Positions 1-42,678 of a stretch of 64,000 bases of DNA are shown piece by piece. Position numbers and translations under genes: made by a program. The stretch is from Bremerella sp. TYQ1 (lineage in GTDB: Bacteria > Planctomycetota > Planctomycetia > Pirellulales > Pirellulaceae): contig NZ_CP083740.1 of the NCBI RefSeq assembly GCF_020150455.1, positions 1,984,001 through 2,048,000 on the forward strand. Reading direction: 5' to 3'. The notes beneath the pieces are model-generated. The model was given only the letters and a program-made list of their open reading frames with translations, was not told the DNA's origin and did not search any database. How positions within the stretch are numbered: position 1 is the stretch's first letter; each line of letters begins with the position of its first letter.

Positions 1-3000
1 GTGATCGAGATAAACCACATTGCCCACCGTCGACGCAAGCTGGCTGCCGGCGAGATCGACAATCTGAATGGAGACAAAGTTCGCTGTGGGCGATGCTTCT
101 TCGGCAACAACCACAGGAGGCAGTGCCACCTTGATTGCATCGACATCCTCTTGCGTCAGCGAAGCAGCGCCGAGCGACGTGTTTTCCAGAGGGGCCACAA
201 TGAAATTCGCACTGGCGGAAGCAAGCAGGTCAAAAGCGTAGCTGTAAGCATGCGTTCCGGCGTCGAAAGTATCGCCGAACGCGGCTCGGAAATAACCGAG
301 CCCACTTCCCAAGAGATCGCCGGACAAGTCAAAGTCAACGAAGTTCGAGGTATTGCCACCCTTCGAGTTGAGAAGCATCGCGTAGTCCGAAAGCCCAACG
401 CGGCCGTCATCGTTTAAGTCATAGATCATCGGCAGCAACTGCGTTGGCACGTCGGAATCTATCGATGGATCGGAAACGCTTCCCACGCCATCTACCGTCA
501 ACGAGACATTCGACACCGAAGTCAGGAACTGATCGAATCCGGTGGTCAGCGTTTCACCCACCTTCGGAGCATCAAGGCCGTTCGCTACCGGAATAAATCG
601 CACGCGTCCCAGCAAGACCATTTCGCCAGCGGCGAGTCCTCCGGCCGAAGAGGTGACGTTAAGCGTCGCCGTCCCTAAGCCGTTGTTCACACCAGAACCA
701 CCGGCCACAGTAAACTTTGGACCGATGATCATCGAATTAGCGCGATAGATGCTTGTATCGAAGTTAAGCGTGAGCCCCGCGGCGGTGATGTCGCTGCCAC
801 CGGTTCCGGTCGGCGAAACCCAGACTTCGACCCAGAATGAATCCCATTCACCGATCAGCAAATCGCTTTGCGGACGGTCGCCAGGGTATCCGAGAAAGTC
901 CGTGTCGGTCAGGCCCTTGGTTACTGTCAGCGTGAAGTTCGACGAATCACGGACATCGACGCTTACCGTAGCGGTCGACTCCATACCCTCGTCGTTGATC
1001 GTGTAAGTAAATGTGTCGGAGCCAGAGAATCCAGTCGCTGGCGAATAAAGAACTTGATCTCCGACAACGATAACCGATCCACCGGCGGATGTAGTTCCCG
1101 ACGCCAACTCGATCGTTACTGTGTCGTTGAATTCGTTGACGTGTCCTTTGTTATCGTTCTTCAAAACCTGCAGCATCGTTGCCGTATCGCGATCGGCAAT
1201 GAAAATGTCGTCGTACGCTTCAGGTTCATCATTCACTGGGGCGACGATAATCGAAACCGTTGCCGCCGCTCCACTGATGCCGTTTTCGTTGTCGGCAACA
1301 TACTGAAACGAAACCGTTCCGTAATAATCCGCTGGCGGCGTGTAGGTCATCTCTCCCGTTGATTTGTTGATAGAGATTTCACCAACGGCTGGCTGCGTTA
1401 CCATCCGCAGCGTCGACGGAATGATGGTTGTTGCCGACTCGGTATCGTTCGTCAGTGGATTGAAGCTGACCAAATTGTCTTCGTCGACATTGATGATATC
1501 GTTATTGAGCGTTGGGCGATTCGCGACGGTGACGCGAATCGTTTCGTAATCCAGCTGACTTGTCGTTGTGAAGTCGTCGCTCAGTTCATTCGAGACCGCG
1601 ACCACAATGCTGTAGACACCGGGAGCGAGTCCGGAGCTTGTATTGATCTGCATCAGCCCGGTCGAGTTGTTCACTGAATAAACAAGACCAGTAGGCGCCA
1701 ACACCGAGAGCTGACCGCCGGCGAGATAGATGTCGGTTTCGTCGTAGAAGAACAGTTCGTCTCCATCCAAGTTGATCGCACTCAGTTGGAACGTGAAACT
1801 GCTGCCAGGCGTGAGCGTCACGTCTGGAACATACGACAGAAATGGCCGACTCGTGCTACCGTTGGGCGCGTAAGTGGCGTTGAACGATTGGCTCAGCGAG
1901 TTTCCTTGTCCGTCGGAAACGGTCACCGTGATGGTTTCAGTGCCCGAGGCTCCTTCAGGAATCTTCAACCGCAAGATGCCGTTCTCTAAATCGACAAACG
2001 TCGACACCTCGTCCATCACGACCGACCAGTACGGCTTGTCGTTGCTGTCAGTCCGGGAAGTACTGATTGACTCGCGAACTTTTTCGCCTTCGGTTAGATG
2101 GCCGAAAACGGTGTGCTGAAAATCAAGATGCGGAGCGAGTCCTTCCATAATGAAGAACTGCGAATTGTTGGTGTCGTCCAGTGACTTGGCGAACGACAGG
2201 ATGCCGGTACTGTTGTGACGTAGATCAGGGTCGTATTGATCCTCGAAGTCTGGCAAGCTGGAACCACCCGTTCCGTTGCCGTTGGGGTCGCCCCCTTGAA
2301 GCACGAAGTCGCTGAAAACTCGATGGAAGATCAACCCGTCGTAGAAGCCGCTCTCGGCCAGCGTGATGATCCGCGACGTGGCCCGACCGGCTTCTTCCTC
2401 GAACAGGTAGAACTCCATCGTGCCGTATCGGCTGGTATAAATGCGAAGGCTTTTGTTGCCTTGCATGACGGAAGCGATCACCTCGCCAGAAGAAGAGGTC
2501 ACCGTATAAGTCAGCGGCTGCCCTGTCGGTGAGTAACCATCGAGTGGAATATGGTACGACTGCCCCGAGATCAAGTTCGTTTGATCAGGAATCTCTTCAA
2601 AATAGAGCGGCTCGCCCTGCGGGATCGTCACCCCGGTGTATGCGAGCAGTTCTTCGATTTCAAGCACGCCGGTTACTCGAGTACCGTCGGCAAACACCCA
2701 AGTAGGCAACTGCGAAATGTTGTTGGCCACACCTACTTCGTTGAGCGTATGATCCGGATTGCTCACTTCGATAAAGGGAAGATCGAAAGCTCCTTCGCCG
2801 AACTTCTCTTTTTGCTCGGTACAAAAGGGACACCAATCCGCGCCGAAGAACTTAGCACCGCTGGCCGCAATTGCTTTAGCGAGCGCTTTCATGTCGACGT
2901 TGTCATAGGTAACGCCACCGACGGTGATCGATTCGCCTTCGAGAGTTAGCGACTCGTTTCCCATTCCCGCGTCAAGCAGTTCACGAGATTCCAACTGCTG

Positions 3001-3162
3001 GCCCTGGTACTTCCACTCTCCCTGTCGCCGCTTGGCCGTAGATACCGGCGCCAACCGTAATCGTTTTAGCTTTGCAGCGAAAACAGCCAGAGCAGAAAGG
3101 ATCAGCAGCAATCCCATCACAACGGCGGCGGCAAGCAAAGCAGCAGGGAAGATATCGGACAT
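1..3162 (-). CDS. Thioredoxin-fold/cyclophilin/cadherin-like/cohesin/dockerin surface protein, partial (C-terminus beyond window)
   Basis: The frame stays open from an ATG at 3162 to base 1 (1054 codons), so the C-terminus is missing. In order: an N-terminal membrane segment (about residues 7-30), a basic stretch, the LESRELL motif (57-63) and LEGES (74-78); a thioredoxin-like domain with CPFC (111-114) and a QLPT loop; a cyclophilin-type peptidyl-prolyl isomerase domain (about 235-380) with FHRVFSDFVLQGGDP and SQFF; several cadherin/Ig-like repeats (YTPPADYYGT, YSPATGFSGSDTFTY); a cohesin-like beta-sandwich (about 735-890); and EF-hand dockerin-like repeats (about 912-950, DLNDDGRVGLSDY). 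The domains suggest disulfide and proline isomerisation outside the cytoplasm, that is a foldase tethered to the envelope. It lies downstream of the SecA/HlyD/M50 genes on the same strand but after a terminator. Domain calls are firm; the role is inferred. Confidence 0.85.
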   Translation of the reverse strand, partial: MSDIFPAALLAAAVVMGLLLILSALAVFAAKLKRLRLAPVSTAKRRQGEWKYQGQQLESRELLDAGMGNESLTLEGESITVGGVTYDNVDMKALAKAIAASGAKFFGADWCPFCTEQKEKFGEGAFDLPFIEVSNPDHTLNEVGVANNISQLPTWVFADGTRVTGVLEIEELLAYTGVTIPQGEPLYFEEIPDQTNLISGQSYHIPLDGYSPTGQPLTYTVTSSSGEVIASVMQGNKSLRIYTSRYGTMEFYLFEEEAGRATSRIITLAESGFYDGLIFHRVFSDFVLQGGDPNGNGTGGSSLPDFEDQYDPDLRHNSTGILSFAKSLDDTNNSQFFIMEGLAPHLDFQHTVFGHLTEGEKVRESISTSRTDSNDKPYWSVVMDEVSTFVDLENGILRLKIPEGASGTETITVTVSDGQGNSLSQSFNATYAPNGSTSRPFLSYVPDVTLTPGSSFTFQLSAINLDGDELFFYDETDIYLAGGQLSVLAPTGLVYSVNNSTGLMQINTSSGLAPGVYSIVVAVSNELSDDFTTTSQLDYETIRVTVANRPTLNNDIINVDEDNLVSFNPLTNDTESATTIIPSTLRMVTQPAVGEISINKSTGEMTYTPPADYYGTVSFQYVADNENGISGAAATVSIIVAPVNDEPEAYDDIFIADRDTATMLQVLKNDNKGHVNEFNDTVTIELASGTTSAGGSVIVVGDQVLYSPATGFSGSDTFTYTINDEGMESTATVSVDVRDSSNFTLTVTKGLTDTDFLGYPGDRPQSDLLIGEWDSFWVEVWVSPTGTGGSDITAAGLTLNFDTSIYRANSMIIGPKFTVAGGSGVNNGLGTATLNVTSSAGGLAAGEMVLLGRVRFIPVANGLDAPKVGETLTTGFDQFLTSVSNVSLTVDGVGSVSDPSIDSDVPTQLLPMIYDLNDDGRVGLSDYAMLLNSKGGNTSNFVDFDLSGDLLGSGLGYFRAAFGDTFDAGTHAYSYAFDLLASASANFIVAPLENTSLGAASLTQEDVDAIKVALPPVVVAEEASPTANFVSIQIVDLAGSQLASTVGNVVYLDH

Positions 3163-3441: not shown

Positions 3442-3783
3442 TTAGTCGTTCGCCGGGCGCTGGGCCGAAGGAATCACGCGCTTCTGGATGTCGGTTTCCA
3501 GTGGGCCGAACGCAGCTTCGTGACGCTGAACCGCCATGTGCAATGCACCCAGCATTCGCTTGGCAGTGTAGTAGTTCAGGATGATTCGCTGATTGACTTT
3601 GATTTTGTCCTGACTTTGCACCATCGGCTGGGTGTTCAGACCGAAGTCAATGATCAACTCTTCTGGAGTACCTGTCACGCGGCAGAAGTTCGCGTAACCA
3701 GCGAGTGCACCAGATTCGTCCAGTTCGACTTGCTTAGGAGCTGCGGCGGCAGGTTGACCTTTGTTTTCAGGGGCGTCCGACAT
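3442..3783 (-). CDS. DUF3467 family protein
   Basis: 113 residues, no signal peptide. From about residue 28 it matches the DUF3467 pattern: YANFCRVTGTPEELIIDFG, then a conserved stretch with NQRIILNYYTAKRMLGAL and a final aromatic/glycine segment (EAAFGPLE). The family is small, widespread in bacteria and of unknown biochemical function. The ATG has a strong Shine-Dalgarno sequence (AAGGAG, nine bases upstream). It is the last gene before a terminator in the minus-strand run that starts with the SecA-like gene, 182 bases downstream of the M50 gene, so it may be a cytosolic accessory of that system. Confidence 0.85.
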   Translation of the reverse strand: MSDAPENKGQPAAAAPKQVELDESGALAGYANFCRVTGTPEELIIDFGLNTQPMVQSQDKIKVNQRIILNYYTAKRMLGALHMAVQRHEAAFGPLETDIQKRVIPSAQRPAND

Positions 3784-3965
3784 GTATTTTGTCTCCTTGG
3801 GATTTAAACGTTACCGTGACGGTATTGGGCTAGTGTAGTCAGGGGCCCCCGTCCTTTAAGATGGCCAACGCCTAGTTTGGCACATCCTTCTTGGGCTTCA
3901 ACCAGACCTAACCGGTACAACCGGAACAACTGGTCGAATCTCCGCGACACTGCGTAAGCTGGCGA

Positions 3966-6212
3966 CTACAGGTAGAAATGGAACGTGCGGGAAATGTAAC
4001 GCCACATCCGGCTGCCCAGCGGTTCCCACTGAACCCAGACTTTCGCGCGACCACGCATGCCGAGCTTCAGTTCGTCCTCGGCGGCAACCAAGGGAACTTG
4101 AGCGGGGAACGTTGCGTTCTGTGGCCGCATCCGCCCGGTTTCTGGATCGGTGACCGAAGGCAAGTCGCCCCCTTGCTGTGTGCTGAGCGAAGGCGGAATG
4201 AACGCAACCTCTTTGCTACCCATCACTGCGATCCGGCCTTTGAAAGTCCGGCCGGGGTAAGCGTCAAGCTTGATCTCAACTTCCTGCTCTGGAATAACCA
4301 ATTCGATCTGATCTTGATCGATGTAAAGAACAGCCTCCATGTCGTTGGCGTCGCCAATCTGGCAAACGACATCGCTCGTCGAGAGATGGGCCCCTTGATT
4401 CTTCACGTCGAAGATGGAACCCGACCACTCCGGCAAACGGCCATCGTCTCCGGTATGGGCCTTCTTGTCTGGCACGGGAAACACCGTTCCGTTGATTGGG
4501 GCCGGTACGTCGATCAAAGCCACTTGCTGTCGCTTCTTTTCAAGCTGCTGCTCCAGCGAGTTGATTTGCTGCTGAACTTCAACGTAGGTCTGTTCGATTT
4601 CCGAACTTTGTTCGGCTCGCAGTCGTTGGTTGTTGAGGGCCTCGTGGAGAACTTGCAACCGCTCCAGTTCGTTCTCGATCTCGGATAGTTCGAGCAACAA
4701 GTCGAGATTGGTCACGCGGGCCAATCTCGTTCCTTGTTCGACATACTGTCCTGGCTTAACAAGCATTCCGTCGAGTTCGCCTGGCACGACAACGAAAACG
4801 CTCTCGGCATTGCTAGGCTGGACTTCTACCGGGCACTTTACCCACTGGGGCACAGGAATGTAAACGATTCCCGCGATCACTGCCGCCACGGCCGAGGCGG
4901 TGATCAAGACATTCTTCCGCTTCACCTGTGACATTCTCCCAGGGACATACAGGAACTTACACAACTGGTAGATGGGCATCACCACCAAACCATAAACGCC
5001 CGCCAAGGCAATCATTTGCCCGATGACCTTCAATCCGTACGGTTCGAAGACCTGATTCAAAAAGAGCATGATCGAGGCGGTCACGACCAGGCGGTAAATA
5101 TTCGAGGCAACGGTATACAAACCGAAGAAAAACTGATTCCGTTCCGGCAGGAAAGGATCGTCCGGCAGTTCCATCCCGAGGCAATACTTCGACATAAAGC
5201 GGTGCAGCACGCTGCTCGCTTTTTGCCGCATGTTCGGCACTTCCATGATGTCCGACAGAATGTAGTAACCGTCGTAACGGAGCAGGGGGTTACCATTGAA
5301 GATCACCGTGCTCACCGAACTGACAAACATGACTTGCAAGGCAAGGTGATTCAATAAACCAGGCTCGCTGAACCACCATATGAATGTGGCAATCGAAGCC
5401 AGGAAGACTTCCACATACATCCCTGCCGCACCGATCATCGCTCGATGCCATTTGTTGGGCAGCATCCACGAGTCGGAAACGTTGCAGTAAAGACAGGGAG
5501 TCATCACCAGGAACATCACGCCCATTTCGTGACATTCGCCGCCATAGCGTTTACAGGAAAGTCCGTGACCAAATTCGTGCAGCACTTTGGTAAACGCCAA
5601 GACGCATCCCAATAGCAGCCAGTTCGATGGGCCGAAGAACTCTTGGAACGATGGCAAGCGACTCCGAAAGACATCGTTCTGCACCGTTACCAACGTAACC
5701 GCCGCAGCACACAGCAGAAGCACTAAAATAAACGCCGGCCCAGTAAAGAACCATCGTGTGTATGGGTTCAGTGCGTTCAGCAATCGGTCAGGGTCAAAGC
5801 CCTTGAAACGAACGGCTAGAACGTTCGACATCAACTGGACTTTTTCTTTCCACTTCCGTTCGTCTCGGCGCGACTTGAGTTGCCGGCCTTGATCCATGGC
5901 GGTCGTGATCACCAACCCACTGCGATGCAGCGTACCAATGAACTGCTGAAGATCGGAAAAGCTGATCTTCTGCGGAGCGAACTCTTTCTCGAATTTGTCT
6001 TTGATGTCCTGCAGCGAAGTCTTACCATCCAGCATGTTCAGGATGGCATACTCTTCTTCCTGAAAGCGGAAGTAGTTGAGGCCTAGCGGCTCTTTCACGA
6101 CCCAGTAGCCACGTCCCTGATAGGTATGCTTACGTGCCGAAATATCAGGTCGAGCACGTAGCGGCAGCGGACGACTGCTACTGGCAACCAAACTGTCTTG
6201 AAGACTGACCAA
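3966..6212 (-). CDS. PqqD-like / M50 (site-2 protease) / HlyD fusion membrane protein
   Basis: 748 residues. An N-terminal segment (about 28-108) looks like a PqqD-type winged-helix recognition element. It is followed by a polytopic membrane domain with the zinc motif HEFGH (H212, E213, H216) and the second site-2-protease motif NPLLRYDG (308-315), then by further membrane helices and a HlyD/biotinyl-lipoyl-type periplasmic region (about 460-740) with a coiled coil rich in E, Q and L (about 505-575). M50 enzymes normally cut transmembrane segments or bind peptides in the membrane; HlyD parts usually connect inner-membrane exporters to an outer-membrane channel. The only available start is TTG, directly after an in-frame TGA; no ATG lies nearby. 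It sits 53 bases after the HlyD adaptor gene, probably in one operon. Confidence 0.88.
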   Translation of the reverse strand: MVSLQDSLVASSSRPLPLRARPDISARKHTYQGRGYWVVKEPLGLNYFRFQEEEYAILNMLDGKTSLQDIKDKFEKEFAPQKISFSDLQQFIGTLHRSGLVITTAMDQGRQLKSRRDERKWKEKVQLMSNVLAVRFKGFDPDRLLNALNPYTRWFFTGPAFILVLLLCAAAVTLVTVQNDVFRSRLPSFQEFFGPSNWLLLGCVLAFTKVLHEFGHGLSCKRYGGECHEMGVMFLVMTPCLYCNVSDSWMLPNKWHRAMIGAAGMYVEVFLASIATFIWWFSEPGLLNHLALQVMFVSSVSTVIFNGNPLLRYDGYYILSDIMEVPNMRQKASSVLHRFMSKYCLGMELPDDPFLPERNQFFFGLYTVASNIYRLVVTASIMLFLNQVFEPYGLKVIGQMIALAGVYGLVVMPIYQLCKFLYVPGRMSQVKRKNVLITASAVAAVIAGIVYIPVPQWVKCPVEVQPSNAESVFVVVPGELDGMLVKPGQYVEQGTRLARVTNLDLLLELSEIENELERLQVLHEALNNQRLRAEQSSEIEQTYVEVQQQINSLEQQLEKKRQQVALIDVPAPINGTVFPVPDKKAHTGDDGRLPEWSGSIFDVKNQGAHLSTSDVVCQIGDANDMEAVLYIDQDQIELVIPEQEVEIKLDAYPGRTFKGRIAVMGSKEVAFIPPSLSTQQGGDLPSVTDPETGRMRPQNATFPAQVPLVAAEDELKLGMRGRAKVWVQWEPLGSRMWRYISRTFHFYL

Positions 6213-6265: not shown

Positions 6266-7207
6266 TTATTGACGACGTCCACTGAATTGAGCACTGAGGG
6301 TCGACGGACGATCGAGGTGAACCGTCACGTTGGCCACATCCCCAGGGAACAACATCCATGAATTGGTCGAAGGTTGGTTCTGCACTTCGGCGGTGAAGTC
6401 GAAATGGCCGGTCGCGTCGATCTCGGGACTAGCGAAAACCACGGTCCCTTCAAACTTGATCATGCCGCCAGGTGTTTCGGCTTCGACAGTGACCGGCTTG
6501 CCGATCACCATGCCAGGCACGAACTTGTCAGCATTCAGCGATCCATCGACCTTCAATCGCTTGAGGCCCACAACACGCATCAAAGGGTCGCCAGGTCGAA
6601 CCCATTCTCCTTCTTGGCGATACTTCTGAACAACGACTCCGTCGATAGGCGTAGTCACTTTGCACTTATCGATCACCATCTCGGCAGCTTCCATTTCAGC
6701 CTGAGCTTCCCCAGCGGTCATGCCGGCGACTTTGAAGTTCATGTCGGCTTGTTCGGCTTGGAGGAGTGCTTTCTCCCATTGAAGCTTGGCTTTGCGAATG
6801 GTGATTTCAGCAATCGCTCCTTTCACGCCTTTGTTGGCTGCTTCCAACTGCTCGAACTCAGCCTTCGAGACTTCGGCCGCTTTGGCAGCGTACTTAATAT
6901 CGACTTGGTTGGTCGCTTGTTCGGTTGCTTTGTCCCATTTCAACTTGGCGATCTCACGCTGCTTCACCGGCAGTGAATCGTCGATCTGGGCAATCTCGGT
7001 TCCTTTCGTCACGTAGTCTCCACGTTCGACAGGAATGGAAACGAGCACCCCGGTTTCCTGGGCAGGAACATTCACTTCGTCAATCAACGAAACGAGGCAA
7101 CGCTCGACTACCACTTGCGAAGCAGTCGCATCGGTGGGCGTTTGAGCGGAAACTTGTCCGGCAATCAGTAGCAATGTGGCAGCCGAAAGAATGACAGACT
7201 TGGACAT
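6266..7207 (-). CDS. HlyD/RND-type periplasmic adaptor (membrane fusion protein)
   Basis: 313 residues from the ATG at 7207. The frame is open for 22 more codons upstream, but this start gives a clean signal peptide (MSKSVILSAATLLLIAGQVSA) and is preferred. After it come a lipoyl-like half motif (VPAQETGVLVSIPVERGDYV), a long alpha-helical hairpin (about 85-180), a second lipoyl half (CKVTTPIDGVVVQKYRQEGE) and a beta-barrel domain. This is the architecture of periplasmic adaptors that bridge an inner-membrane exporter and an outer-membrane channel. No ABC or RND pump is encoded next to it; its neighbours are instead the M50/HlyD and GAF/HlyD proteins, so it probably works with those. Confidence 0.9.
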   Translation of the reverse strand: MSKSVILSAATLLLIAGQVSAQTPTDATASQVVVERCLVSLIDEVNVPAQETGVLVSIPVERGDYVTKGTEIAQIDDSLPVKQREIAKLKWDKATEQATNQVDIKYAAKAAEVSKAEFEQLEAANKGVKGAIAEITIRKAKLQWEKALLQAEQADMNFKVAGMTAGEAQAEMEAAEMVIDKCKVTTPIDGVVVQKYRQEGEWVRPGDPLMRVVGLKRLKVDGSLNADKFVPGMVIGKPVTVEAETPGGMIKFEGTVVFASPEIDATGHFDFTAEVQNQPSTNSWMLFPGDVANVTVHLDRPSTLSAQFSGRRQ

Positions 7208-7297
7208 AGGTCTCTTACCTCGTGCGATGATGTTGCCTGCTTGCTCGGTGCAGGCCAATAAAAGGTGTTTCAAAGGGATTGCGAAAGTGGATTGCCG

Positions 7298-9361
7298 TTA
7301 GAACAAGATCCGCGATTCGATAAATTCGAACACTTCATGGAACCAGGTATATCCCAGCGGAGCCGTTCCGCAGTGTACCTTGGCGGTAGCGGTGGCACCG
7401 GCTCGAAGGTGTTCGATGTCTTGCTTGTCGATTGCGACTTTCAGCTTGACGATCTGCCCCTCCGTGGAGTCTGGCTGAGCAAGTCGCTGAATCTCGGTAA
7501 CTTTACCAGTCAGCTGACGCCCTGGATCGCTGGCCATGATGTAAGTCACGTCCAACGCTTCCGAATCTTGCTGATGCTCCAAGGCATACTGAATGTGTTG
7601 AATCCGTTTTTCTGGCATACGGATTTCCAAAATCCACTCTTGGGAAGGATCGATCACCGTCATCAAAACCTGGCCAGGCGTGACGGGACGTTGCATCAAA
7701 TTGTCTCGCACGTCCCACGTGACAATCTCGCCGCTGATGGGACTGGCAACTTCCAAGCGGGCCATCTTTTCTTCGATCAACGCGACTTGTTCGTTGAGAT
7801 GTTCGTACTTCTGACGAGCCTGACCGAGATCGATCGTCAGCTGTGTCGCTTCGGATGGATTCCGCATCGTCTCTGGTCGACGCTTACGAAACTCGAGTGC
7901 CTGAAGCGTCGTCAACGTTTTTTCACGATCGCCGGTGAACTGTTTGTATTGACGTTCGAGCTCGGTATTTCGCAACTTCGCGACGAGCTGGCCTTGCTGG
8001 ACTTGATCGCCATGATCGACCGGCACTTCGATGACTTCCCCTTCCACCGCGACAAACACTTCTCGCTGGACAACAGGAGTCAACGTGGCGGAACCAGAGA
8101 CTTTGAACGGAGCGGGAATCAAAAACAACGCCGCGATAATAGCCGCGACACCAGCCACGGCGAGAACCGTTTTGGGCAAGTTACGCGCGGTAACGAGAAC
8201 CTTCGATTTGCCCAGCAACCGCCAAACAGGCGTTAACGGAATCGAGTTGTAATCGATCGCGTTAGCCAGGGCGCGACTGCTGTGCTCGGAGATCAGCTCA
8301 ACCCCCTTCGAGAACTCTTCCTGCTGCGAACTGTCTTCGATTTGCTCGACGACCAACGCACCGAGAATCTCGCCTTGGAATTGACGCTCCTCTTCACCCT
8401 CTTCCCGCTTCATGTTGTCGGTCGCATGTTCCGGACGACGCAGTGGAATCACCGCAATCGTTTTGGTGTGCGACTCGTCAACGTAATCGTGAACGGCCGT
8501 TTCAAGCTGTGGCGAAAGATCTTCGGTCTGGCCGTTGAACCAGAACGGCTCGCCGGTTTCGATGACGCGTGACGCCAGCTTTCCGAGAAGTTGAACCTGG
8601 CTTGAACGGGCATCGAAAACATCTTGGCCGCTAACCGCTTCGACCTTCCAGCGACCACGACGCAACACGACCGAAACGCGGTCGCAACCGATCAAGCGTC
8701 GGCCCTCGTTAGCGATGGTGTAGGCCGTTTGACGCAAGTCGAGGTTCTCGTGCACGGCACGGCTGAACTGCTCGATCTTCGACCACAACGATTGACGGTC
8801 AGAGAAGTCGCGCAGTTTGCGGTTCTTGAACCAATCGGTAGCCAAACCGCACATCTGTTCCAGGAAGCGAAGATACCCACGCTGACTGTTTGGAGCCGAG
8901 TTGGGACGCTGGAAGATTTCGATAACCCCTTCGACTTTGTCTTCGACACGAATCGGGGAAACGACCAGCAGTTGATTTGTTGGATTGCCAGCGGAATTTT
9001 CTTCGGCACCGCCAGACTGCGGAGCGAGGAGCTGGGCCTCGGACCCTTTGAACATGCTCTCGATCAAACGAAGGTGACGAATACCTTCGTCGCTCTTCGG
9101 ATCGACAAGACCTCGGGCCAAATTGATTTGATAAATCAGTTGCGGGCGGCGCTGTTCGTCGTAAATCCACGCAGCACCACCGACGGCGGCCAAAGCGGAA
9201 ACGACTTTGGGCAGCACTTCCTTGAAATAATCCTCTGGAGGGACATCCCGTTTGGAAAGCTGGGCAATCTCCTGAATCAGGCCTCGAATCTGCTTCTTGG
9301 TGCTTTCGAGGGTCTCGGGATTCACGGACGAGGGCTCGGTGGACATGCCGGGACTATTCAT
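7298..9361 (-). CDS. GAF-domain/HlyD fusion protein
   Basis: 687 residues. The cytosolic N-terminal half holds two GAF-like sensor regions (about 50-165 and 195-375; for example GCDRVSVVLRRGRWKVEAVSG). A single membrane helix at about 395-418 (VLAVAGVAAIIAALFLIPAP) follows, then a HlyD-type periplasmic part with split lipoyl motifs (VAVEGEVIEVPVDHGDQVQQ and ASPISGEIVTWDVRDNLMQR) around a helical hairpin. GAF domains bind small molecules or mediate partner contacts; joined to an adaptor they could couple a cytosolic signal to envelope export. The start is ATG; no strong Shine-Dalgarno sequence is visible. It lies 90 bases upstream of the HlyD adaptor and 319 bases downstream of the SecA-like gene. 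Confidence 0.88.
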   Translation of the reverse strand: MNSPGMSTEPSSVNPETLESTKKQIRGLIQEIAQLSKRDVPPEDYFKEVLPKVVSALAAVGGAAWIYDEQRRPQLIYQINLARGLVDPKSDEGIRHLRLIESMFKGSEAQLLAPQSGGAEENSAGNPTNQLLVVSPIRVEDKVEGVIEIFQRPNSAPNSQRGYLRFLEQMCGLATDWFKNRKLRDFSDRQSLWSKIEQFSRAVHENLDLRQTAYTIANEGRRLIGCDRVSVVLRRGRWKVEAVSGQDVFDARSSQVQLLGKLASRVIETGEPFWFNGQTEDLSPQLETAVHDYVDESHTKTIAVIPLRRPEHATDNMKREEGEEERQFQGEILGALVVEQIEDSSQQEEFSKGVELISEHSSRALANAIDYNSIPLTPVWRLLGKSKVLVTARNLPKTVLAVAGVAAIIAALFLIPAPFKVSGSATLTPVVQREVFVAVEGEVIEVPVDHGDQVQQGQLVAKLRNTELERQYKQFTGDREKTLTTLQALEFRKRRPETMRNPSEATQLTIDLGQARQKYEHLNEQVALIEEKMARLEVASPISGEIVTWDVRDNLMQRPVTPGQVLMTVIDPSQEWILEIRMPEKRIQHIQYALEHQQDSEALDVTYIMASDPGRQLTGKVTEIQRLAQPDSTEGQIVKLKVAIDKQDIEHLRAGATATAKVHCGTAPLGYTWFHEVFEFIESRILF

Positions 9362-11702: not shown

Positions 11703-12238
11703 CAGGTCTTCTTCCCTAGAGGTGCATAGCCACTTCGGCTGGGGGTGTCGATCTAATGATAGACGTCATCAGATTTTAGTATGAAAGACAACCCTCTTTG
11801 TTCCCAACTTTCAGCCAACTCTTTCGACAGATTCATGGAAGTTGATTGGTCGGCTGGCCCAACCAACCCGCAAACTTGACGCAATCACCCCACTTTGCCT
11901 TTTCTGTGTGTTTGATGGTGCCAAATAACTTTCCTGCGGAGAATTCCGTTTATACGGGTTGCACATTGCTTTTTGTTTAACCGGCACATGCTGAACGGCC
12001 GACATTCCTAATACGTCCGGAATAATCGTACGCGGACCGTTCGAGTGCCAGGGCTAGCGTCCTGACAAAAGAAAACATTCCGCCTGATAGGCCCCTGGTT
12101 TTTGAACCGCCGGGTTTATTCATGGCTATTCGATTTTGGATGTCCATAAGACGCAAGCGGTAGCTCTTGTAACTCCTTCCGCTGGTCGGAACGAGGCAGG
12201 GCCTTGGGAGCGACAGCATTAGTTTGCGAGCACACAAC
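11703..12238. other. Divergent promoter region between SecA-like and BBP7 genes
   Basis: 536 bases between two divergently transcribed genes, so both promoters should lie here. No gene, RNA or clear operator was recognised. A small minus-strand frame at 11811-12005 has no supporting features. Confidence 0.6.
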
Positions 12239-30600: not shown

Positions 30601-33600
30601 CAGACTGAGCCCCTGTCGCAACAAAGCCGGCGTTGTTGCCGAACAGCTTCACAACAAGGCTTTCAGTCGCCGAGCTTTCCAGGCGGATACCGCCGTAGGT
30701 GTGGAAGTTGGTCGAGTAAATAGTGCTGTACAAAGCGTGAACGATATCGGTATCGTCCCAAACGCTTTGGGTCGTCAGCACGCCGCCACGGACAACCATT
30801 GCATTCAGATCGTTGTCGGTCAGCAGGTTACGACGGATCAACGCACCTTGGTTGTCCCCCAAACCACGTTGACGATCGAGATTGCCTGTCGAACGTCCCC
30901 AGTCAACAACCAAGTCATGGCTGAGCGAGCTCGTGTCGACGTTCAACACGTTGGCTTCGTTGAATCGGAAGTTATTGCCAACGATGATCGGCTGCGAATC
31001 GCGGACGAAGATCACCGCGTTATCGTTGCTCATGTGGCCGTTTCGAGTCGGACCACCGACACCGGCGCCTTGACCGTCGTCGTTGTACTCGAAGGTCGAA
31101 TTGGTCACACGCACTTTGGCCTGATGGATTTCGATCACGTTGAAGTGAGCTTGCCCACCACTGATGTTCGACTCACCACCACCAAAGGCAAGCAGCACAT
31201 TGTCGAGGCTACCTGACGAGGTATGGGCGAAGTAGATACCGCTCCAATCACCTTCGTCAGCCACCGAAGCAGCACCGTCGTTATTGGTATCGAATGTTCC
31301 ACCAAAGCCATAACGATCGTCACGCAGCGAGGTGAACACAACCGGCCGACCAGGGGCACCTTCCGCGATGAAGTTTGCCCCCATCTCGACTTCGATACGA
31401 CCGGCGTTGAACTTCACAACGACATTCGGATCGACCACCAAACTCGAATCGTAGCGAGCCTGGTAGAGGCGATCGACAACGATGCCAGCATTTCCACCCA
31501 AGTAGGCTGCACTGTAATCGCCGGTGAGTCGGACGTTACCGTTCTCTGCAACCGCGTCGATATTCAGGAAGATCCCTGGGAAGCCAAACGATTGCGAATC
31601 GCGGAAACGATTGATCAGGAAGGCAATTTGTTCGGCAAGTGCTTCTTCAGTAAAGACACCGATAGGAACTTCTTCACCCACGCCAGGCGTTTCGCTAGGC
31701 ACCATCGTGTCCAAGTTGATGGTGTAAACCACGTCACTTGTCGCCGTCGATGGATTGTTCGAGTCCACGAACTCGATGATCAATTCCCGAAGCTGATTGG
31801 TATCGGAAAGAGCACGAACTCGCAGACGGGAACCTGCGGTGATGCCGGACAGATGCTGTACTTTGACAACATCGACGTTTTCCGAGTATGCCCCGCCTGG
31901 CGTCGAATCGATGTGCAGGGCTTCCTGAATCACATAGACGATGTCAGTATCGTCGAAGCGACCAGCAACGGTCATTTCTTCCAGAGGGCTACCTGGGGAA
32001 GAAAGAATTCGCACCAACATACCGTTGGTCGAGTTTTGAACGATTCGGTTTCCAAAGATATCAGGACCGACACGGCTGACGTCTGGAGTAAACGAAGCAG
32101 GAGCACCGTTGTAAACCGTGTAGTTCGATTCCTCGAAGCTGTTCGGATCTGCCGAAAGAGCGGCCCCGGAGCTCAGACGAATCACGTTGTAATTGATCGT
32201 CGGACGGGCTTCTTCCATGTAGATCGGCGTGAGCGAAACGTCCGCACCATCTACTTCGGCGATACCACCTGCGTAGCGGAACTCGGCACCGATGATCGAG
32301 TTCATGAAGATACCAGCATCTTCATACGTCCCTCGCAGCTGTTCGCGGTCAACCTCTTGATTGAAGAGGATACCGCCCCAGTTGCCAGCCGATGCATCGG
32401 CTTGGATATTGCTCGCATGTCCGACGCGTTCGGCGTCTTGGTCTGGATCGTTTAGAAGCGTCGTTTCGTTGTAAGACGTCAGCGTCACACGACGATTCTG
32501 ACGTTCTTCGTCAAGGGTAACGGTTCCGTTCGATTGGGTATTCGGCTGGTAACGTTCCGGAATACCTAGAATTTGCAACGAAGCGAAGCTGTAGTCATCG
32601 ATAACCGATGTGCTACCAACTTGAATGCTGGAGTTGCTGAATTTCAGAATGGCTCCTTCATCGATCATCATCGTAACGCCCTTAGGCAAGATGATTTCGG
32701 TGCCATCCTTCAGTGGAGCATTGGTGATCGGATCTCGCCCGATCAGGTAAGCAATGTTGTCGCTGAGCGTCGATTGATCGTCGCCGACTCCTCCGAGACC
32801 GATGACGCGGATCACGTCGCCGCGACCGGCTGTTCTAGCCGCGCTAATCGCAGCACCAATGGTGGAAAATGGCTGATCGATCGAACCCGTCTGGGCCGTT
32901 CCTGTATAGGTCGCATCGACAAACAACGTGCGAGGTGTTGCCGAAGTAATCGAACCATAAGTCGATGGTTCAGCACGGAACCAGAAGTTGAATGCCCCGC
33001 CGGCTGTGCCGTCCAAGTCGCCATCCAACGATGCCCCTGCAGCCGCACCGCTCGTCACGACAATCGCCTGCGTTTGAATGATGCTAGGCGACAGAGTGAT
33101 CGGGCTGTTGCTGGCCAGATTTCGCAGTTCGATGCGGTTCCCCGTGGAAGATGCCACCACGTTGAAATCGGCATCGTTAATCGCAGTGACCAGGGCGGCA
33201 ACGACCTCACTCTGAAGCGTATTCGAATTCACGACAACCGCTTCGGCATTACTGTTGTTGAGGTTGTTGTCGTAGTCGATCTCGAAGATGCGAGTCATTC
33301 CGCTGTCATCTTTCAGCGTAATGGTCTGACCATCTTGGAAGCCGCCACCATCGGTACGTACGACCATCGAATTCAATTGCGAAACGGTAGCACCGGTATC
33401 ACGAATCGAGTCGTTGACCGTTGGAGTGAATCGCAACTGCAGGTGGTATTCACCTTCCGACGTGCCGCCGAAGCCCGAGTCTTCGATGTTCGGATCGTAA
33501 ACTTCGTTGCCACTTGCCGAGACACCAATGAAATAGGTCCCTGGCTCAAGCGTGATTTCCAGGAAGGAATCTTCGCTGAAGTAATCGTTGTTACGAGCAA

Positions 33601-36399: not shown

Positions 36400-39300
36400 C
36401 TAGAAAGTCAGCAGCTCTTCTTCCCAATCGGCGTCAGCGAAGATGTCATCTTCCGAGTCGCCTGATTCCGCAGCGAAATCAAGTTCGTCGTCACTACCCC
36501 AAAGCAGATCGCTTTGCGTCGTTCCGAGCGAGCTGAACGTCGCATCTGCGAGATCTTCTTCGCTGACGATTTCCGTCTCGACGGCATTGCCTTCGCTCGA
36601 AGTCGGCGTCGACATCATGCTGGCGAAGATTGGCTGGAACACCGTGGCAGTACGCGGCTGAGTCGCTGCAGCGACTTCTGGCGTCGTTGCGACAGGAGCG
36701 ACCGTTTCCTCTTGCTTGACGGCAGCAATCACTTCGACAGCAGGCGTGCTGGAAAGCGTTTCAACCGGATCGCTGGCAGCCGGTTCTTGCTCCAACGATT
36801 CTCCAGCCAATGGCGAGTTCATCATGTTGATGATTGCCAGCAAGTCGAGATTCGAGAATCGACCGTCACCGTTTACGTCGATGAACTTGGTGAAGTTCGA
36901 CGATCCGCTGCCTAGGTTAGGCAGGTTACGAGCACCAACGGTTCGCAGTTCCTTCAAGATCGTTACATAGTCCAAACCGCTCAGGTTTCCGTCGTTATTC
37001 ACGTCGGTAACCATGTTGGTGTTGTTAAACGCCAGTGTGCCCGATGCCGTTGGAGGCACGACTGGATCTACCGGCGAAACCAACGTGACCGTTGCGGTTG
37101 CAGTAACGCCTGCCGAATCGATCACGGTGTACTCGAACGTGATGTCTTCGGTCAGATCAACGACCCCAGAAGCGTCGAAGATAATACGTGTTCCATCGTC
37201 CGAAACAGTGATGTCCAGCGGTGGGGTTTCGACAGGGCTGATGTTCGTCACACTGCCGGCAACGATTCGCAGCGATCGATTGAAGAAGCTGCTGTCGTTC
37301 GCCAAGACATGGAAGACCTGATCGGCGGTGTCATCTTCGTACGAGAAGACATCGTCTCGAGCGGTCAAGCCACTGTCGGCAGGCTGAGTGATGAAGACTT
37401 TGTAGTCTTCAATTTCACCAAACGCATCGTTGTCGGTAGCACCGATGTTCAACGTCGGACCGACGCGGAATCGCATGTTCGCAGCCAAACGAGCCAGTTC
37501 CGGCAGAACCGAATCGTCAAACACGTTCGTTGGAATCGTGAACGTGTACTCGTTCTGGCCAGGAATCAACTTCACGTTGGTGAAGATGCGTTCGTTGGCG
37601 TCGTTGAAGTCACCATCTTTGTTTAGATCGAGCCAAGCGTTCATCACGACATTGTTGTGAGTCACGCTGGAAGTGATCGTTACCGTGTTGGTTCCCTTCT
37701 TAATACCGTTATTGAAGAAAACACCGTCATCTTCAATTGGGCTATTGCCGAGGTAGGCACCAGGAGCGACCGGCACCGAACCGCCCAGGCCGCTATCGCC
37801 CGAGTCGGAACCCGAGATCACACCGAACTCGAGTGGTGCACTCAGCGAAGCGGAACCGTCCGTGTTGATCGTGACGTAAACCGGATTCGTGGTCGTGATC
37901 ACCGACCCAGCCGTTGGAACCGGCATGATCTGGAACGTACCGGAGTAGGCCGATCGCAAGTGGAACTGCCCCAACGCGTTCGAGGTCGCCGTTGGTTCGC
38001 ACAGACCAATCAGACCGTCACCGTTATAGTCGATGAAGAACTTCGCCCCTGCGACACCCGACTCGATTGGATCACGGAAGCCATCCATGTCTAGGTCTTG
38101 AAACGCCAGACCAATCATTCCCTGGGTCGTACCACCAGGCACGTCTGAAGCGGCAATGACTTCATCGTTGTAGAAGGCAATTCCCGAAGCAGCGATCGAA
38201 ATTGGTTCGCCCAGGAAGCGTTGTTCCAGCGAGAAGAAATCGTTATCGATGACATCGAAGTACTCTTCCGCATCGGCTGCGTCGACCATGGCTTCCGTCA
38301 CGCCGATCAGCTGACCTTCAGCGGTGACTTCAAAGCCATCCAGTGGATCGAGGCCCGTTTGCGTTACCGCCGAAAGTGCCCCTGTCGGCAGGAATTCGTA
38401 GTAATCGTTGTCTCCACCGGAAGCACCAACCCAGAGGTCCAAACCGCGATCGTTCACGGCATTGGCCAGGTTATCTTCCACGGTTGCCCACAGAGCCATT
38501 TCCGAAGAGGAAAGGCCGTCCGTCACAGCATCTTCACCCGAAAGCATAATGATCAGATCGTGATTGATCAGTTCATTGAAGACAGCTGGATCGATGAAGT
38601 TGATATTGTAGTAGTCGGTTCGCTCGTATCCGGTCGCCGATTGCGTGCCGTTCGAGAACGACCAGGCAACGGCACCATTTCCGACCACGGCAATCGAGTA
38701 TTCCGCCTTCGGAATTTCGGTTGCGGTACCCTTACCACGCAGGAAGTCGAGGATGATGTCGTCGTATCCGAGCTGACCAGGATTCGTGCCGTCGAGAATC
38801 GCGTGGTTGGTCGCAAAGAAGTTACCACCGATCGCCCCCGCGAACGAAACCGTTCCGTCCGGCAGCGCGACACCACAAGCGTCGACAACCGTCGAACCGC
38901 CGCCGCCTCCACCACCGCCCGAAACAGCAGGCGTTGCCGCAATGGCAGCGTAAGCATTGATCAGACCATGTCCGGTTTCGATATCAGGCCCGCTCGTGGC
39001 CATGTCGATGGCGGTATCTTCCAGAATGCCGTAGAGCTGCTCAGGAGTCAGGTTAGGATTCTTCTGCAGCATCAACGCAGCCACAGCAGCCGCGTGAGGG
39101 GCAGCAGCCGAAGTACCGAAGAAGTTCGGGAAGAAGTCGCTATCTTCCGGAATATCTTGACCGAAGAACGTGGTGTTCGTTCCGTCGGGAGCAACAAAGT
39201 CAGGCGTCTGACGATACTCAGGAACGTTCAAACGATTGCCGTCGAGATCGAAGAACGTTGGCACGCCACCAACCGACGAGAACGATTCCTTAACTGGTGG

Positions 39301-40746
39301 GTTGGTGCCGAAGACAGGCGTGTCATAGAACGCCGCAGCACCCACAGCCGCAGTACCCGCCGCCGTCACGTGACCAACAGCTGTACCGTCGTTGGTGTAC
39401 CATTCGTTGACGGTCACGCCGGGACTGACAATCCAGTCGACGTACTTCAACAAGCCGGCATCGTCGCCCGAGAACTTCGAGATAACGATGTGGTAGCTAG
39501 TTTCAGTACTCAGGTTGACGTAACCGAGGAACTCAAACGGATCGCCGGTAACGACGTTCACGTCGACCGAGCTTGCGACCACTTCGTCGTCATCATCCAG
39601 CAAGTAAATGTCGTAGTCGCTTTGTGCCCCGAGGCCGCCCGCCGAAGCGTACGGCTGATCCCACTGCAGCACCACGCTGAAAACGCCGCCTGCCGGAATC
39701 GTCACACTCTGACGCACGTCGACACCGCTACCGGGATCGAAGTCGTGCAGGGTACCATCGACCACGTCATCGATGCCGCTGTCTTGGTAAGCGCCCTGGT
39801 AGCTGTCACGTCCGCTGTTCCCAGCGGCAGCGAAGTAGGAAACACCCTGGGCAACCACGATATCGATCGCTTGAGCGATGATACCATCCTGGAACCATGG
39901 TTCGTTAGCGTAACCGATGTCGTCGACAATCACGTCAGCGCCCGCGGCAGCCAACGCGAGAATACCGTTGGCAAAGTCGACATCCGAAATCCAGGCGGTG
40001 TAGAACATGATGTCCGCACCTGGAGCGACGTCGTGGATTAGCTGAGCCATCGCGCGACCTTCGTCGCTCAGACCAGGATCGAACGCCAACGTTACGTCCG
40101 AAAGAACCGTCACGTCATCTGGCAAGTCGCCCGAGGCAACGTCATCGGCATAGCCCCCCAAAGCATCGAAGCTGTCGGAGAGAACGCCAACAGTGATTCC
40201 GGTTCCATCAAATCCGAAATCAATACGAGCCAGATCGGACTGCATGGCCGGATCGGCTTGGCTGGTCGTATCACCGACATTACGAACCGGAGTAACCGCC
40301 GCGGCAACCGAGCGGATGCTGTCCAAGCCATTCAACGCATTCAGTTGGCTCAGAGGAATGCGAGCAGAAACAATCACGCCGAACGACTGCGTTTCGGTCG
40401 CACCGAGTCCGGCCAGATCGTTGATCACCGCATCGGCGTCGTTCATCGCAATCGCACGGATCAAAACCGAATCGTTGTTGATCGTGGCAAAGGGAGCATT
40501 GATCGCAACGTTGCCACCGTCGTAAGCAGGATCGGTGACTTGGGCATCGTATTGGCGGGCGATCGAGGCCAAGTTGCTGCTGAACTTATCCCACTGGGAT
40601 TCGCTGCTGCGCTGTTCCACGCCAGGAGCAAAAGTTACCGGTCCCGGGGCATCGCCAAAAGTATTTCCAGCGAGGAGGCAGCGTACTTCTAATGCCTCCA
40701 TTTGCTTAAGTTTGGACCGTTTTTGGCGCTTAATACCACGCTTCAT
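36400..40746 (-). CDS. LEPR-XLL S8/S53-like serine peptidase with SdrD_B-like, GEVED, cadherin-like and dockerin domains
   Basis: 1448 residues from the ATG at 40746, which has a strong GAGGAG site seven bases upstream; the earlier in-frame GTG is rejected. A basic N-terminus leads to LEVRCLL (19-25). The subtilase-like domain (about 160-590) has the Asp motif GVLSDSFD (D191) and the Ser motif GTSAAAP (S546), but where S8 enzymes carry a His it reads SDEGRAMAQLIHDVAPGA (D228, E229). Downstream are a DUF4114/Rossmann-like segment (about 610-860), an SdrD_B-like domain (about 890-980), a GEVED-type region (about 1010-1115), a cadherin-like repeat (about 1120-1220) and a dockerin-like pair (about 1240-1305). 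It ends with AGESL, an S/T/P linker and an acidic tail. Probably an extracellular protease. Confidence 0.85.
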   Translation of the reverse strand: MKRGIKRQKRSKLKQMEALEVRCLLAGNTFGDAPGPVTFAPGVEQRSSESQWDKFSSNLASIARQYDAQVTDPAYDGGNVAINAPFATINNDSVLIRAIAMNDADAVINDLAGLGATETQSFGVIVSARIPLSQLNALNGLDSIRSVAAAVTPVRNVGDTTSQADPAMQSDLARIDFGFDGTGITVGVLSDSFDALGGYADDVASGDLPDDVTVLSDVTLAFDPGLSDEGRAMAQLIHDVAPGADIMFYTAWISDVDFANGILALAAAGADVIVDDIGYANEPWFQDGIIAQAIDIVVAQGVSYFAAAGNSGRDSYQGAYQDSGIDDVVDGTLHDFDPGSGVDVRQSVTIPAGGVFSVVLQWDQPYASAGGLGAQSDYDIYLLDDDDEVVASSVDVNVVTGDPFEFLGYVNLSTETSYHIVISKFSGDDAGLLKYVDWIVSPGVTVNEWYTNDGTAVGHVTAAGTAAVGAAAFYDTPVFGTNPPVKESFSSVGGVPTFFDLDGNRLNVPEYRQTPDFVAPDGTNTTFFGQDIPEDSDFFPNFFGTSAAAPHAAAVAALMLQKNPNLTPEQLYGILEDTAIDMATSGPDIETGHGLINAYAAIAATPAVSGGGGGGGGSTVVDACGVALPDGTVSFAGAIGGNFFATNHAILDGTNPGQLGYDDIILDFLRGKGTATEIPKAEYSIAVVGNGAVAWSFSNGTQSATGYERTDYYNINFIDPAVFNELINHDLIIMLSGEDAVTDGLSSSEMALWATVEDNLANAVNDRGLDLWVGASGGDNDYYEFLPTGALSAVTQTGLDPLDGFEVTAEGQLIGVTEAMVDAADAEEYFDVIDNDFFSLEQRFLGEPISIAASGIAFYNDEVIAASDVPGGTTQGMIGLAFQDLDMDGFRDPIESGVAGAKFFIDYNGDGLIGLCEPTATSNALGQFHLRSAYSGTFQIMPVPTAGSVITTTNPVYVTINTDGSASLSAPLEFGVISGSDSGDSGLGGSVPVAPGAYLGNSPIEDDGVFFNNGIKKGTNTVTITSSVTHNNVVMNAWLDLNKDGDFNDANERIFTNVKLIPGQNEYTFTIPTNVFDDSVLPELARLAANMRFRVGPTLNIGATDNDAFGEIEDYKVFITQPADSGLTARDDVFSYEDDTADQVFHVLANDSSFFNRSLRIVAGSVTNISPVETPPLDITVSDDGTRIIFDASGVVDLTEDITFEYTVIDSAGVTATATVTLVSPVDPVVPPTASGTLAFNNTNMVTDVNNDGNLSGLDYVTILKELRTVGARNLPNLGSGSSNFTKFIDVNGDGRFSNLDLLAIINMMNSPLAGESLEQEPAASDPVETLSSTPAVEVIAAVKQEETVAPVATTPEVAAATQPRTATVFQPIFASMMSTPTSSEGNAVETEIVSEEDLADATFSSLGTTQSDLLWGSDDELDFAAESGDSEDDIFADADWEEELLTF

Positions 40747-41080
40747 GGGATTGCTCCTCACGCAGAGATGACTTCTCAGGGTTGATATGGACTAACGGCA
40801 GGGTAGAGGAAAGGTCACACAAACCAGGTGTCTCCAATGAAAATCACGCACTCTGGTCCGAGGAGAGAGGTCGCCACTGAGGTCCCTTCAGGCACCTTGC
40901 GCAAACTCCGTAATCTGGCCTCGCCCCGCCATTTAGGTAGTTCGACGGAATATACTTAGACTGACGATAGTTGCGAATGTTCCGTTTTTCTACCCATTTA
41001 CCCAGAAATTGACAAAAACGATTCCCCCCGGCAGGGTGTTCCTTACCCGGGAAATCGTAATTACCCGTCATTCAGCGCAT
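40747..41080. promoter_or_regulatory. Upstream region of the subtilase-like gene
   Basis: 334 bases with no gene, ending at the terminator of the BBP7 gene. It contains TACCCATTTACCCAG at 40991-41005 and TTACCCGGG near 41043, which resemble sequences upstream of the other LEPR-XLL genes. It should hold the promoter of the peptidase gene. Confidence 0.5.
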
Positions 41081-41145: not shown

Positions 41146-42678
41146 TTACCACATGTACTCGAAACCGACCGTTGGACCGTGATAGACGGCGTTGCCGTTG
41201 TCGTTGACGAACGCCGAGCGTCCAGCCAACGCGGTTCCCAGTGTGGAAGCCCCACCGGTCTCGAAGTTGAACGAGTCGCTACCCAGGGCGATGCCGTCAA
41301 TGTAGACAACCTGGTAACCGGCTCGCAGCGTTCCTCTTGGAATCACTTTGAAGGTGCTCATGAAACCACCTTCGACCACCATCGAGGCTCGTCGGGAAGC
41401 GGCCGATTCTTCAAAGGTGTTCGCTCCACCATTCAGGACGATCGTCGAGTCTTGGTTGGCACGGTTACCGTAGACACCAATTTCGCCGAACATCGACAGC
41501 GTCCAACGGTTGGTCAGGCGAAGAGCCGAGTCCATACCGAACTGAACACCGAACATGTCGTTGTCAGCGTCGACGGTGTATTCCAAGCTACCGCCGGAAC
41601 CGACCGTGTTGTAAACCGCGTCGTCGTCAACTCGGACGTAGCGGAAACCAACCCACCAGCCGCTGTGCCACCAGCCACCTGGCGAAGTGAAGAAGCGTCG
41701 CATGTTCAACTCGAACGAATCAAAGCGATTCGACGTCGAGAACATCTGCAAGTCGCTGTTGTCGGTTTCGGCATAGCCGCCAACGGGATCGACACCGAAG
41801 CCGGAGAATGCAGAGAACAAGTTACCGCTACCGGTCACGCTTTGCGTCGAAGCCCAGTTACCAATACCGAGGTAGCTGAATTCCAAGTAAGTGCCTGGCG
41901 TGAACGTACGATTGAGTCCCAAGCGAATGCCACCTTGGTTGGTGAAGTCTGCGTCGTCCGTCGACAAAACCGGGTTATTCGCGGCGTTCTGCGAAGTGAG
42001 AACAAGCGGGTTGTTGCCTGCTTCATAGATGAAAAGCGTTGCGTCCACAACGACGTCGGCGTAGCGTGGAGCACTTCGTCCGCCATATTCGCTGAGGTCC
42101 CAAGCGTTGCCGATACCGCGGCTGAAGCCACAGTAAACGCCACCGCCACACAAGCCGCAGCAGCTACCGCATCCGGCTCCACCACAAGCATCGCAGCAGC
42201 CGTTTCCACGGTGCTTGCCGAGGTGACCGTGATGGCCACCCATGCAGTGTTGGCATCCGGCTCCGCCGCATGATTGGCAGCCATGGCCACCCCAGTGACC
42301 GGCTGGCATCACGTTCGGATCCATCATCGGTTGACCGGGTGCTCCGGGACCGTAGCCAGGTGCCATTGGCATTCCATAACCAGCCGGCATCACTCCCTGA
42401 GGAGCATACCCGGCGGCCATGCCTGGCATCATCATCTGGCCGTAAGGGTCCATCGCGACGTAAGGGTTCATCCCAGGCGGCATGTGCTGCCCTGGCTGCC
42501 CTTCCGGCTGGCGTTCGACACGCCAATCGCCGCTCGTGAATTGCTCAACGGCGGACGATTCTTGGCCGATCGTCTTCTGACCGGTGTGCTTTGCATAGGT
42601 TGTCTTTTCAGCGTTCGCCGTAGCGGCAAAAAACACTGTGGACAACGTTAAGGCGGTCCACAAGGTAGTGGCTCTCAT
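41146..42678 (-). CDS. BBP7 family outer-membrane beta-barrel protein with Cys/Gly/His-rich segment
   Basis: 510 residues from the ATG at 42678, which has GAGGA five bases upstream; 17 further in-frame codons upstream are rejected. The signal peptide (MRATTLWTALTLSTVFFAAT) is followed by a P/M/G/Y-rich segment, a Cys/Gly/His-rich stretch at 134-183 with 12 cysteines in CxxC-like pairs, and a barrel-like domain ending in GPTVGFEYMW. The planctomycete BBP7 family fits. The cysteine cluster could bind metal or form disulfides in the periplasm. Together with the BBP7 gene at 12239 it flanks the LEPR-XLL island. Confidence 0.85.
   Translation of the reverse strand: MRATTLWTALTLSTVFFAATANAEKTTYAKHTGQKTIGQESSAVEQFTSGDWRVERQPEGQPGQHMPPGMNPYVAMDPYGQMMMPGMAAGYAPQGVMPAGYGMPMAPGYGPGAPGQPMMDPNVMPAGHWGGHGCQSCGGAGCQHCMGGHHGHLGKHRGNGCCDACGGAGCGSCCGLCGGGVYCGFSRGIGNAWDLSEYGGRSAPRYADVVVDATLFIYEAGNNPLVLTSQNAANNPVLSTDDADFTNQGGIRLGLNRTFTPGTYLEFSYLGIGNWASTQSVTGSGNLFSAFSGFGVDPVGGYAETDNSDLQMFSTSNRFDSFELNMRRFFTSPGGWWHSGWWVGFRYVRVDDDAVYNTVGSGGSLEYTVDADNDMFGVQFGMDSALRLTNRWTLSMFGEIGVYGNRANQDSTIVLNGGANTFEESAASRRASMVVEGGFMSTFKVIPRGTLRAGYQVVYIDGIALGSDSFNFETGGASTLGTALAGRSAFVNDNGNAVYHGPTVGFEYMW

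Follow-up and report, generated by a model that had tools for sequence, protein, structure and literature searches.

The 64,000-nucleotide stretch of the Bremerella sp. TYQ1 genome analyzed here (the window; G000:C1:1984001-2048000, from a 6.66 Mb genome in one contig) contains a five-gene block on the minus strand, 3442-11702, with a set of proteins around it that share an N-terminal tag. In the order of transcription the block encodes a short secondary SecA of 673 aa, the proposed motor (9681..11702; SecA_DEAD, E=3.7e-106), a GAF-transmembrane-HlyD fusion (7298..9361; PF01590 and PF13437, with a hydrophobic stretch at 392-427), an HlyD periplasmic adaptor with a Sec-like signal by hydropathy (6266..7273, the start probably near 7207; RND_mfp 103.3 bits, cut-off 94.9), a 748-aa fusion of an RRE/PqqD-like domain, an M50 site-2-type protease and an HlyD adaptor, proposed as tag reader, cutter and membrane anchor (3966..6212), and a DUF3467 protein of 113 aa, a small operon member (3442..3783; PF11950, E=3.5e-23). 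Gene identity, order and strand agree with a preliminary description of the window. That description also reported no ABC or RND transporter gene, and none is found among the 20 open reading frames given whole to Pfam, a set that includes neither the smaller frames nor the tagged proteins of 1453 and 4728 aa.

The six proteins around the block that had been named as carrying LExRxxL after a K/R-rich stretch all do so. They are an SdrD_B-containing protein of 818 aa at 13751..16207 on the minus strand (MEPLETRSMLAGD), a protein of about 652 aa at 16691..18679 on the plus strand (LEQLEGREMLNAT), a 900-aa protein with a dockerin match at 18755..21457, also plus (IERLESRLALSAV), a giant of 4728 aa at 21635..35821, minus (HEPLEKREMLTTG), a 1453-aa protein at 36400..40761, minus (MEALEVRCLLAGN), and a foldase-like, Big/cadherin-like protein at 1..3162, minus, with the motif near 2953-3030, which extends past the window edge. 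The first five had been called giants; five tagged proteins do exist, but their size was overstated, and only one in the window exceeds 2000 aa. Just beyond the left window edge there is one more tagged frame, the seventh, of 2947 aa. The five were also said to lack a hydrophobic signal core, and near the motif this holds by plain hydropathy, which was used rather than SignalP. Over the N-terminus as far as 18 residues beyond the start of the motif, their best 12-residue mean ranges from 0.36 to 1.47, and four window proteins taken by eye as Sec-signal controls give 1.66-2.69. The protein at 18755-21457 reaches 2.27 farther downstream, still within residues 1-80. In the foldase-like protein a transmembrane-like stretch (2.93) precedes the motif. 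Pfam finds in this protein a cyclophilin domain (E=4.2e-33) and, below threshold, a thioredoxin match. It looks as if a folding helper took the same route as the other proteins.

The tag is a basic stretch followed by (hydrophobic)-E-x-L-E-x-R-x-(L/M)-L-(S/A)-(A/G). L-E-x-R is invariant in 35 planctomycete N-termini. After one variable residue come L or M in 34 of the 35, then L in 32, S or A in 28, and A or G in 34. E-P-R-x-L-L-S-A-D dominates in 14 other N-termini (E 14, P 13, R 14, L 14, L 14, S 11, A 14, D 13). The aligned rows were selected as motif carriers, and the invariance of L-E-x-R is thus partly due to selection. The tag is the same motif as the planctomycete RRLxxExLExRxLLA of Studholme et al. 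2004 (PF07595), which according to PMC8567305 was suggested to be a novel export signal and, in that account, has no machine assigned. The same source reports 52 motif proteins in Tuwongella, of which 20 were detected, eight of these in the sodium dodecyl sulfate-soluble fraction only, and places the motif on eight of the ten longest Tuwongella proteins. The PF07595 model (Planc_extracel, cut-off 25.5 bits) scores two of the six window N-termini below its cut-off (20.3 bits for the 818-aa protein and 16.9 bits for the 4728-aa giant) and does not match the other four. NCBIfam LEPR-XLL (NF012209, LEPR-8K; cut-off 17 bits) shares the tag consensus and marks giants near the locus in proteobacteria. 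It has no match in the six window N-termini at a limit of E=10 with HMMER filters on; of six tagged proteins near other planctomycete M50 genes, two score above its cut-off, two score below it and two have no match.

The gene set has likewise been described before. Kamneva, Poudel and Ward 2015 (PMC4452313) reported a SecA_DEAD protein without the SW domain together with M50/HlyD, GAF/HlyD and HlyD proteins, and the window locus has this secondary-SecA layout, with all four side by side. In their account the locus is akin to Type I secretion, with SecA suggested to supply the ATPase and the M50 protein perhaps a pore, and no definite role is given to it. Their main text names no substrate, and "LEPR", "PqqD", "leader peptide" and "DUF3467" do not occur in it. 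One further paper found to carry the 2015 title cites that study in passing. The locus and the tag are each already published, and no publication joining them was found in the literature searched. Their joint distribution in genome sequences makes a strong case that the tagged proteins are the substrates of the gene set.

The gene set and the tag co-occur, often side by side, in two phyla, Planctomycetota and Pseudomonadota. In the first, 294 genomes were searched for the M50 fusion and for a 20-position tag profile. The fusion is present in 67 genomes, and the profile matches 93 at E<=0.1. At E<=0.002 the tag is found in 27 genomes, all of which have the fusion, while none of the 227 M50-negative genomes passes (Fisher 3e-20); the profile was built partly from tags beside M50 genes, and six of the 27 genomes supplied rows. 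At E<=0.01 there are 37 genomes with M50 and 8 without, about two of the latter being expected by chance, and at E<=0.1 the 67 M50-positive genomes yield 209 matches and the 227 M50-negative ones 53, where about 23 are expected. The 27 genomes belong to 13 families, all among the 29 M50-bearing families (p=3e-8 over 92 families; families read by eye). The two are often close in position. Twenty-one of the 102 best tag matches in M50-positive genomes have an M50 copy at a distance of 10 kb or less, compared with 0.84 expected. The window's genome has three M50 copies, each with a tag no more than 4 kb away, and the seven best of its 18 tag matches fall within about 45 kb, for a profile built from those same seven.

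The association recurs in proteobacteria. A plasmid search with the M50 protein matched 79 records; in eight of these the match spans 80% or more of the protein. Eight plasmid regions picked by eye were inspected. In the Rhizobium johnstonii region the M50 protein is near the record start and no giant was seen. In all seven remaining loci, which are alphaproteobacterial, a gene near the block that is giant or at least large begins with the tag (LEPRVLLNAD, FEPRVLLSAD, LEPRFLLSAD, MEPRVLLSAD, IEPRILLSAD, LEPRLLLAAD and YEPRLLLSAD; the records name four LEPR-XLL), and in six the tagged gene adjoins it. The fullest order, in Methylosinus, is giant, DUF3467, HlyD, M50, SecA, HlyD, TolC. DUF3467 is annotated in five of the seven loci and TolC in two, and no ABC exporter is annotated inside the block of any, the genomes having been searched for one nowhere else. 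A genome scan gave 570 stretches, the best 80 of which were analyzed as non-planctomycete loci. They come from one Omnitrophota metagenome-assembled genome (MAG) and from genomes whose names place them in the Alpha-, Beta-, Gamma- or Deltaproteobacteria, and tblastn finds the short SecA in 74, GAF/HlyD in 78, HlyD in 61, DUF3467 in 34, SapC in 24 and TolC in 3. A SapC-family gene is often within or beside the proteobacterial locus (for example L124 10872-11693).

Giant frames accompany many of these loci. In 49 of the 80 either a long frame runs up to the block and ends there or a tagged N-terminus is complete, and 67 offer at least 2.1 kb of room. In a search of 49 genomes with the locus, Methylorubrum rhodesianum among the genomes with both locus and LEPR-XLL, LEPR-XLL scores above its cut-off in 47, and 59 of the 81 matches are in frames of at least 5,000 aa; in the two exceptions the giant frame is cut off by the contig end. 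The longest LEPR-XLL frame listed has 17,824 codons (G410:C4:103221). The 49 genomes were chosen for having the locus, and a less biased comparison uses 149 genomes from the family of Pseudooceanicola (G298, itself picked). An M50 match at E<=1e-150 occurs in 16 of them, and every one of the 16 carries LEPR-XLL at E<=1e-4. LEPR-XLL reaches this level in 18 of the 149 genomes, the other two being G430, with a distant M50, and G470. In G390, G404, G425 and G430 a weak LEPR-XLL match (E 0.003-0.1) is separated by about 13-16 kb from a distant M50 gene. The preliminary description had proposed that the tagged proteins are exported by this gene set and had suggested genome-wide co-occurrence as a check; the association is present, and proteobacterial synteny backs the proposal. 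Very probably the gene set is an ABC-less, Type-I-like secretion system for N-terminally tagged large surface-type proteins; a proposed mechanism is outlined below.

The short SecA has the features of a motor. Residues 55-662 align with a solved SecA2 structure (best PDB match 6sxh, chain named SecA 2, E=1.3e-155), and the ATPase motifs GEGKT, DEADS, GRGTD and GRCGRQGD are present. The alignment stops at position 624 of the 786-residue 6sxh chain, and on this reading the protein would end at the start of the SecY-engaging scaffold helix, without the scaffold/wing region. A long SecA frame (1238 aa) is encoded elsewhere in the genome (G000:C1:3001974). The short protein thus resembles the accessory SecA2 of Gram-positive bacteria in being a second SecA beside a long one and in having SecA motor domains with ATPase motifs, but it is shorter at the C-terminus and is partnered with HlyD proteins. 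Gram-positive SecA2 proteins cooperate with the canonical translocase, as stated in PMC4452313. In public plasmid records the short SecA is labelled "prepilin peptidase" (L121 14165-16081; L124 11686-13710), a name that is probably wrong.

The M50 fusion is predicted to combine an RRE domain, a site-2-type protease and a MacA-like adaptor. Its PqqD and M50 Pfam matches fall below their cut-offs, and profile and fold comparisons support both. The idea that the PqqD-like domain reads a leader is backed by the predicted fold, which matches RRE domains whose structures were determined with leader peptides bound. The HExxH and NP....D active-site positions are invariant across 42 sequences, and the modeled membrane bundle resembles a protease and not any known pore. 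The NCBIfam equivalog NF041824 scores the fusion at 189.2 bits, below its cut-off of 300. The daptide protease MpaP is described in PMC10036551 as an RRE fused to an intramembrane site-2 protease that processes small peptides; it shares with the window protein the RRE-then-M50 order and an LE-type leader motif (ELExMEAP for MpaP). The window fusion differs in that it adds an HlyD adaptor and adjoins SecA, and its presumed substrates have hundreds to thousands of residues. The DUF3467 protein is conserved between planctomycetes and proteobacteria. Its predicted fold is beta-beta-beta-alpha (pLDDT 76), for which a PDB comparison gave no clear relative.

The folds and families suggest how such an exporter could work. 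The RRE domain of the M50 fusion would bind the tag in the cytoplasm, and the protease would cut it, perhaps near LLSA/D. The short SecA would thread the unfolded chain at the expense of ATP, and the HlyD parts of three proteins would build a periplasmic conduit ending in a TolC-type outer pore. The inner-membrane conduit might, as a guess, be the M50 membrane bundle, or else SecYEG. HlyD adaptors are components of systems spanning both membranes, and in Type I secretion the signal is C-terminal. The system resembles Type I secretion (HlyB-HlyD-TolC; EmrA, MacA) in its HlyD/MacA-type adaptors, in the TolC of some loci and in its very large presumed substrates, but no ABC exporter was found and the signal is N-terminal. 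That it represents a distinct type of secretion has somewhat less than an even chance; in such a type, found in Planctomycetota and Pseudomonadota, the RRE, a domain familiar from peptide natural products, would read the address and the truncated SecA and a protease-anchored adaptor conduit would bypass both the Sec pore and ABC exporters, with substrate frames of up to 17,824 codons. If the export system is real, the secretion-like locus without cargo of 2015 and the export-like tag without a machine of 2004 would account for each other. It would explain the surface placement of very large proteins in planctomycetes and many proteobacteria, give a context to DUF3467 and the RRE-M50-HlyD fusions, and make such secretomes predictable from sequence.

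Several observations weigh against this interpretation. Eight M50-negative planctomycetes have the tag at E 0.003-0.01, and because the M50-negative matches at both E<=0.01 and E<=0.1 exceed chance, a few tags without M50 may be genuine. In the family sample, the MAG G470 has a strong LEPR-XLL match and no M50. LEPR-XLL scores above the model cut-off in 24 of the 149 genomes, and besides the 18 strong cases there are six weaker ones (E 0.001-0.03). Among these, G372 and G460 lack any M50 match, G389, G446 and G469 show just a short match to the adaptor part, and G390 has a weak M50 match. The control genome Deinobacterium chartae has a LEPR-XLL match and no daptide-type protease at E<=1e-5. 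The converse, a gene set without tagged proteins, had been named in advance as contrary evidence and is found in part: 21 of the 67 M50-positive planctomycetes have no tag match at E<=0.1, and four of these have the short SecA (G037, G051, G073 and G130), with G075 ambiguous; of the other 16, three (G090, G161 and G241) show no complete SecA and are uninformative. G291 has M50 and tag matches (listed frames of 247-443 aa), and the short SecA was not found in it. On the plasmids, the tagged gene of Rhodobacteraceae M382 ends about 14 kb from the block, across the record origin, and no SecA is seen in the Thalassospira region inspected. The scarcity of TolC among the 80 loci also counts here, as does the RseP match to the M50 fusion, which is helical and scores under the tool's advised trust level. 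Because the short SecA stops before the SecY-engaging part, its coupling to a pore is conjectural.

Some of these cases are separated by the short SecA. It is present in 21 of the 22 M50-positive planctomycetes with tag matches that were tested and in four (five with G075) of the 21 tagless ones, so the marker of the system is the short SecA plus M50, rather than M50 alone. A sister system without the short SecA seems to exist (G024, G283). M50/HlyD loci of this kind, L064, L068, L061 and L069, occur in G024, G283 and G291, in which the short SecA was not found.

It is quite unlikely that the tagged giants leave by the ordinary Sec translocon or another exporter while the M50/HlyD/SecA locus is a mere neighbor that handles, for example, a peptide product. 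The window's genome does have the long SecA frame and 14 OEP/TolC-type frames, and daptide-type M50 proteases act on small peptides (PMC10036551). The M50/HlyD family evidently has other jobs, since it has relatives without the short SecA or tags (G024, G283) and distant relatives on E. coli plasmids. However, the tag of the five window proteins has no hydrophobic core, the giant gene near the locus begins with the same tag in two phyla, and at strong thresholds the alphaproteobacterial sample shows almost one-to-one co-occurrence. Shared ancestry, with large genomes that keep many surface proteins, is an extremely improbable source of the association. Genomes within a clade are not independent and the tagged genes of the window cluster together, yet the pattern recurs, with physical adjacency, in 13 planctomycete families, in genomes named as four classes of proteobacteria and in the Omnitrophota MAG.

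A third possibility keeps the gene set and the tag together and changes the roles. SecYEG would be the inner pore, the short SecA would serve as unfoldase or chaperone, and the tag would be read and cut in order to sort or anchor the protein. The match of the M50 bundle to a protease and to no known pore favors this arrangement, as does the use of the canonical translocase by Gram-positive SecA2. It is nevertheless unlikely, given that the short SecA appears from the alignment to stop where the SecY-engaging scaffold would begin and that HlyD adaptors are typical of systems bridging two membranes. The dedicated export system built from the short SecA, the M50 fusion and the HlyD proteins is preferred to all three.

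The BBP7 barrel at 12224..13666 on the plus strand (PF07585, E=7.4e-74) had been offered as a possible channel, and this idea is not upheld: the window protein, used as tblastn query, is matched in only two of 40 planctomycete M50 loci, those of its own genus and family, with the limit that distant BBP7 proteins could escape such a search. It is judged a neighbor gene and not a conserved part of the system. The 14 OEP/TolC-type frames of the genome are all outside the window. Two long ones (805 and 676 aa; G000:C1:3369817-3371025 and 6614705-6615691) have M50 copies 2 and 3 at a distance of about 14-18 kb and are possible outer channels.

Two related proteins of 456 and 466 aa, outer-membrane-like by eye, are encoded in tandem between two tagged genes to the left of the window (L001 6667-9625, plus strand). 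The window protein at 41146-42729 has no Pfam match. At 43709-44749 on the plus strand there is an SBP_bac_10/DUF1559 protein with an N_methyl pilin-type start, a member of a family reported to be strongly expanded in Planctomycetales (PMC8567305).

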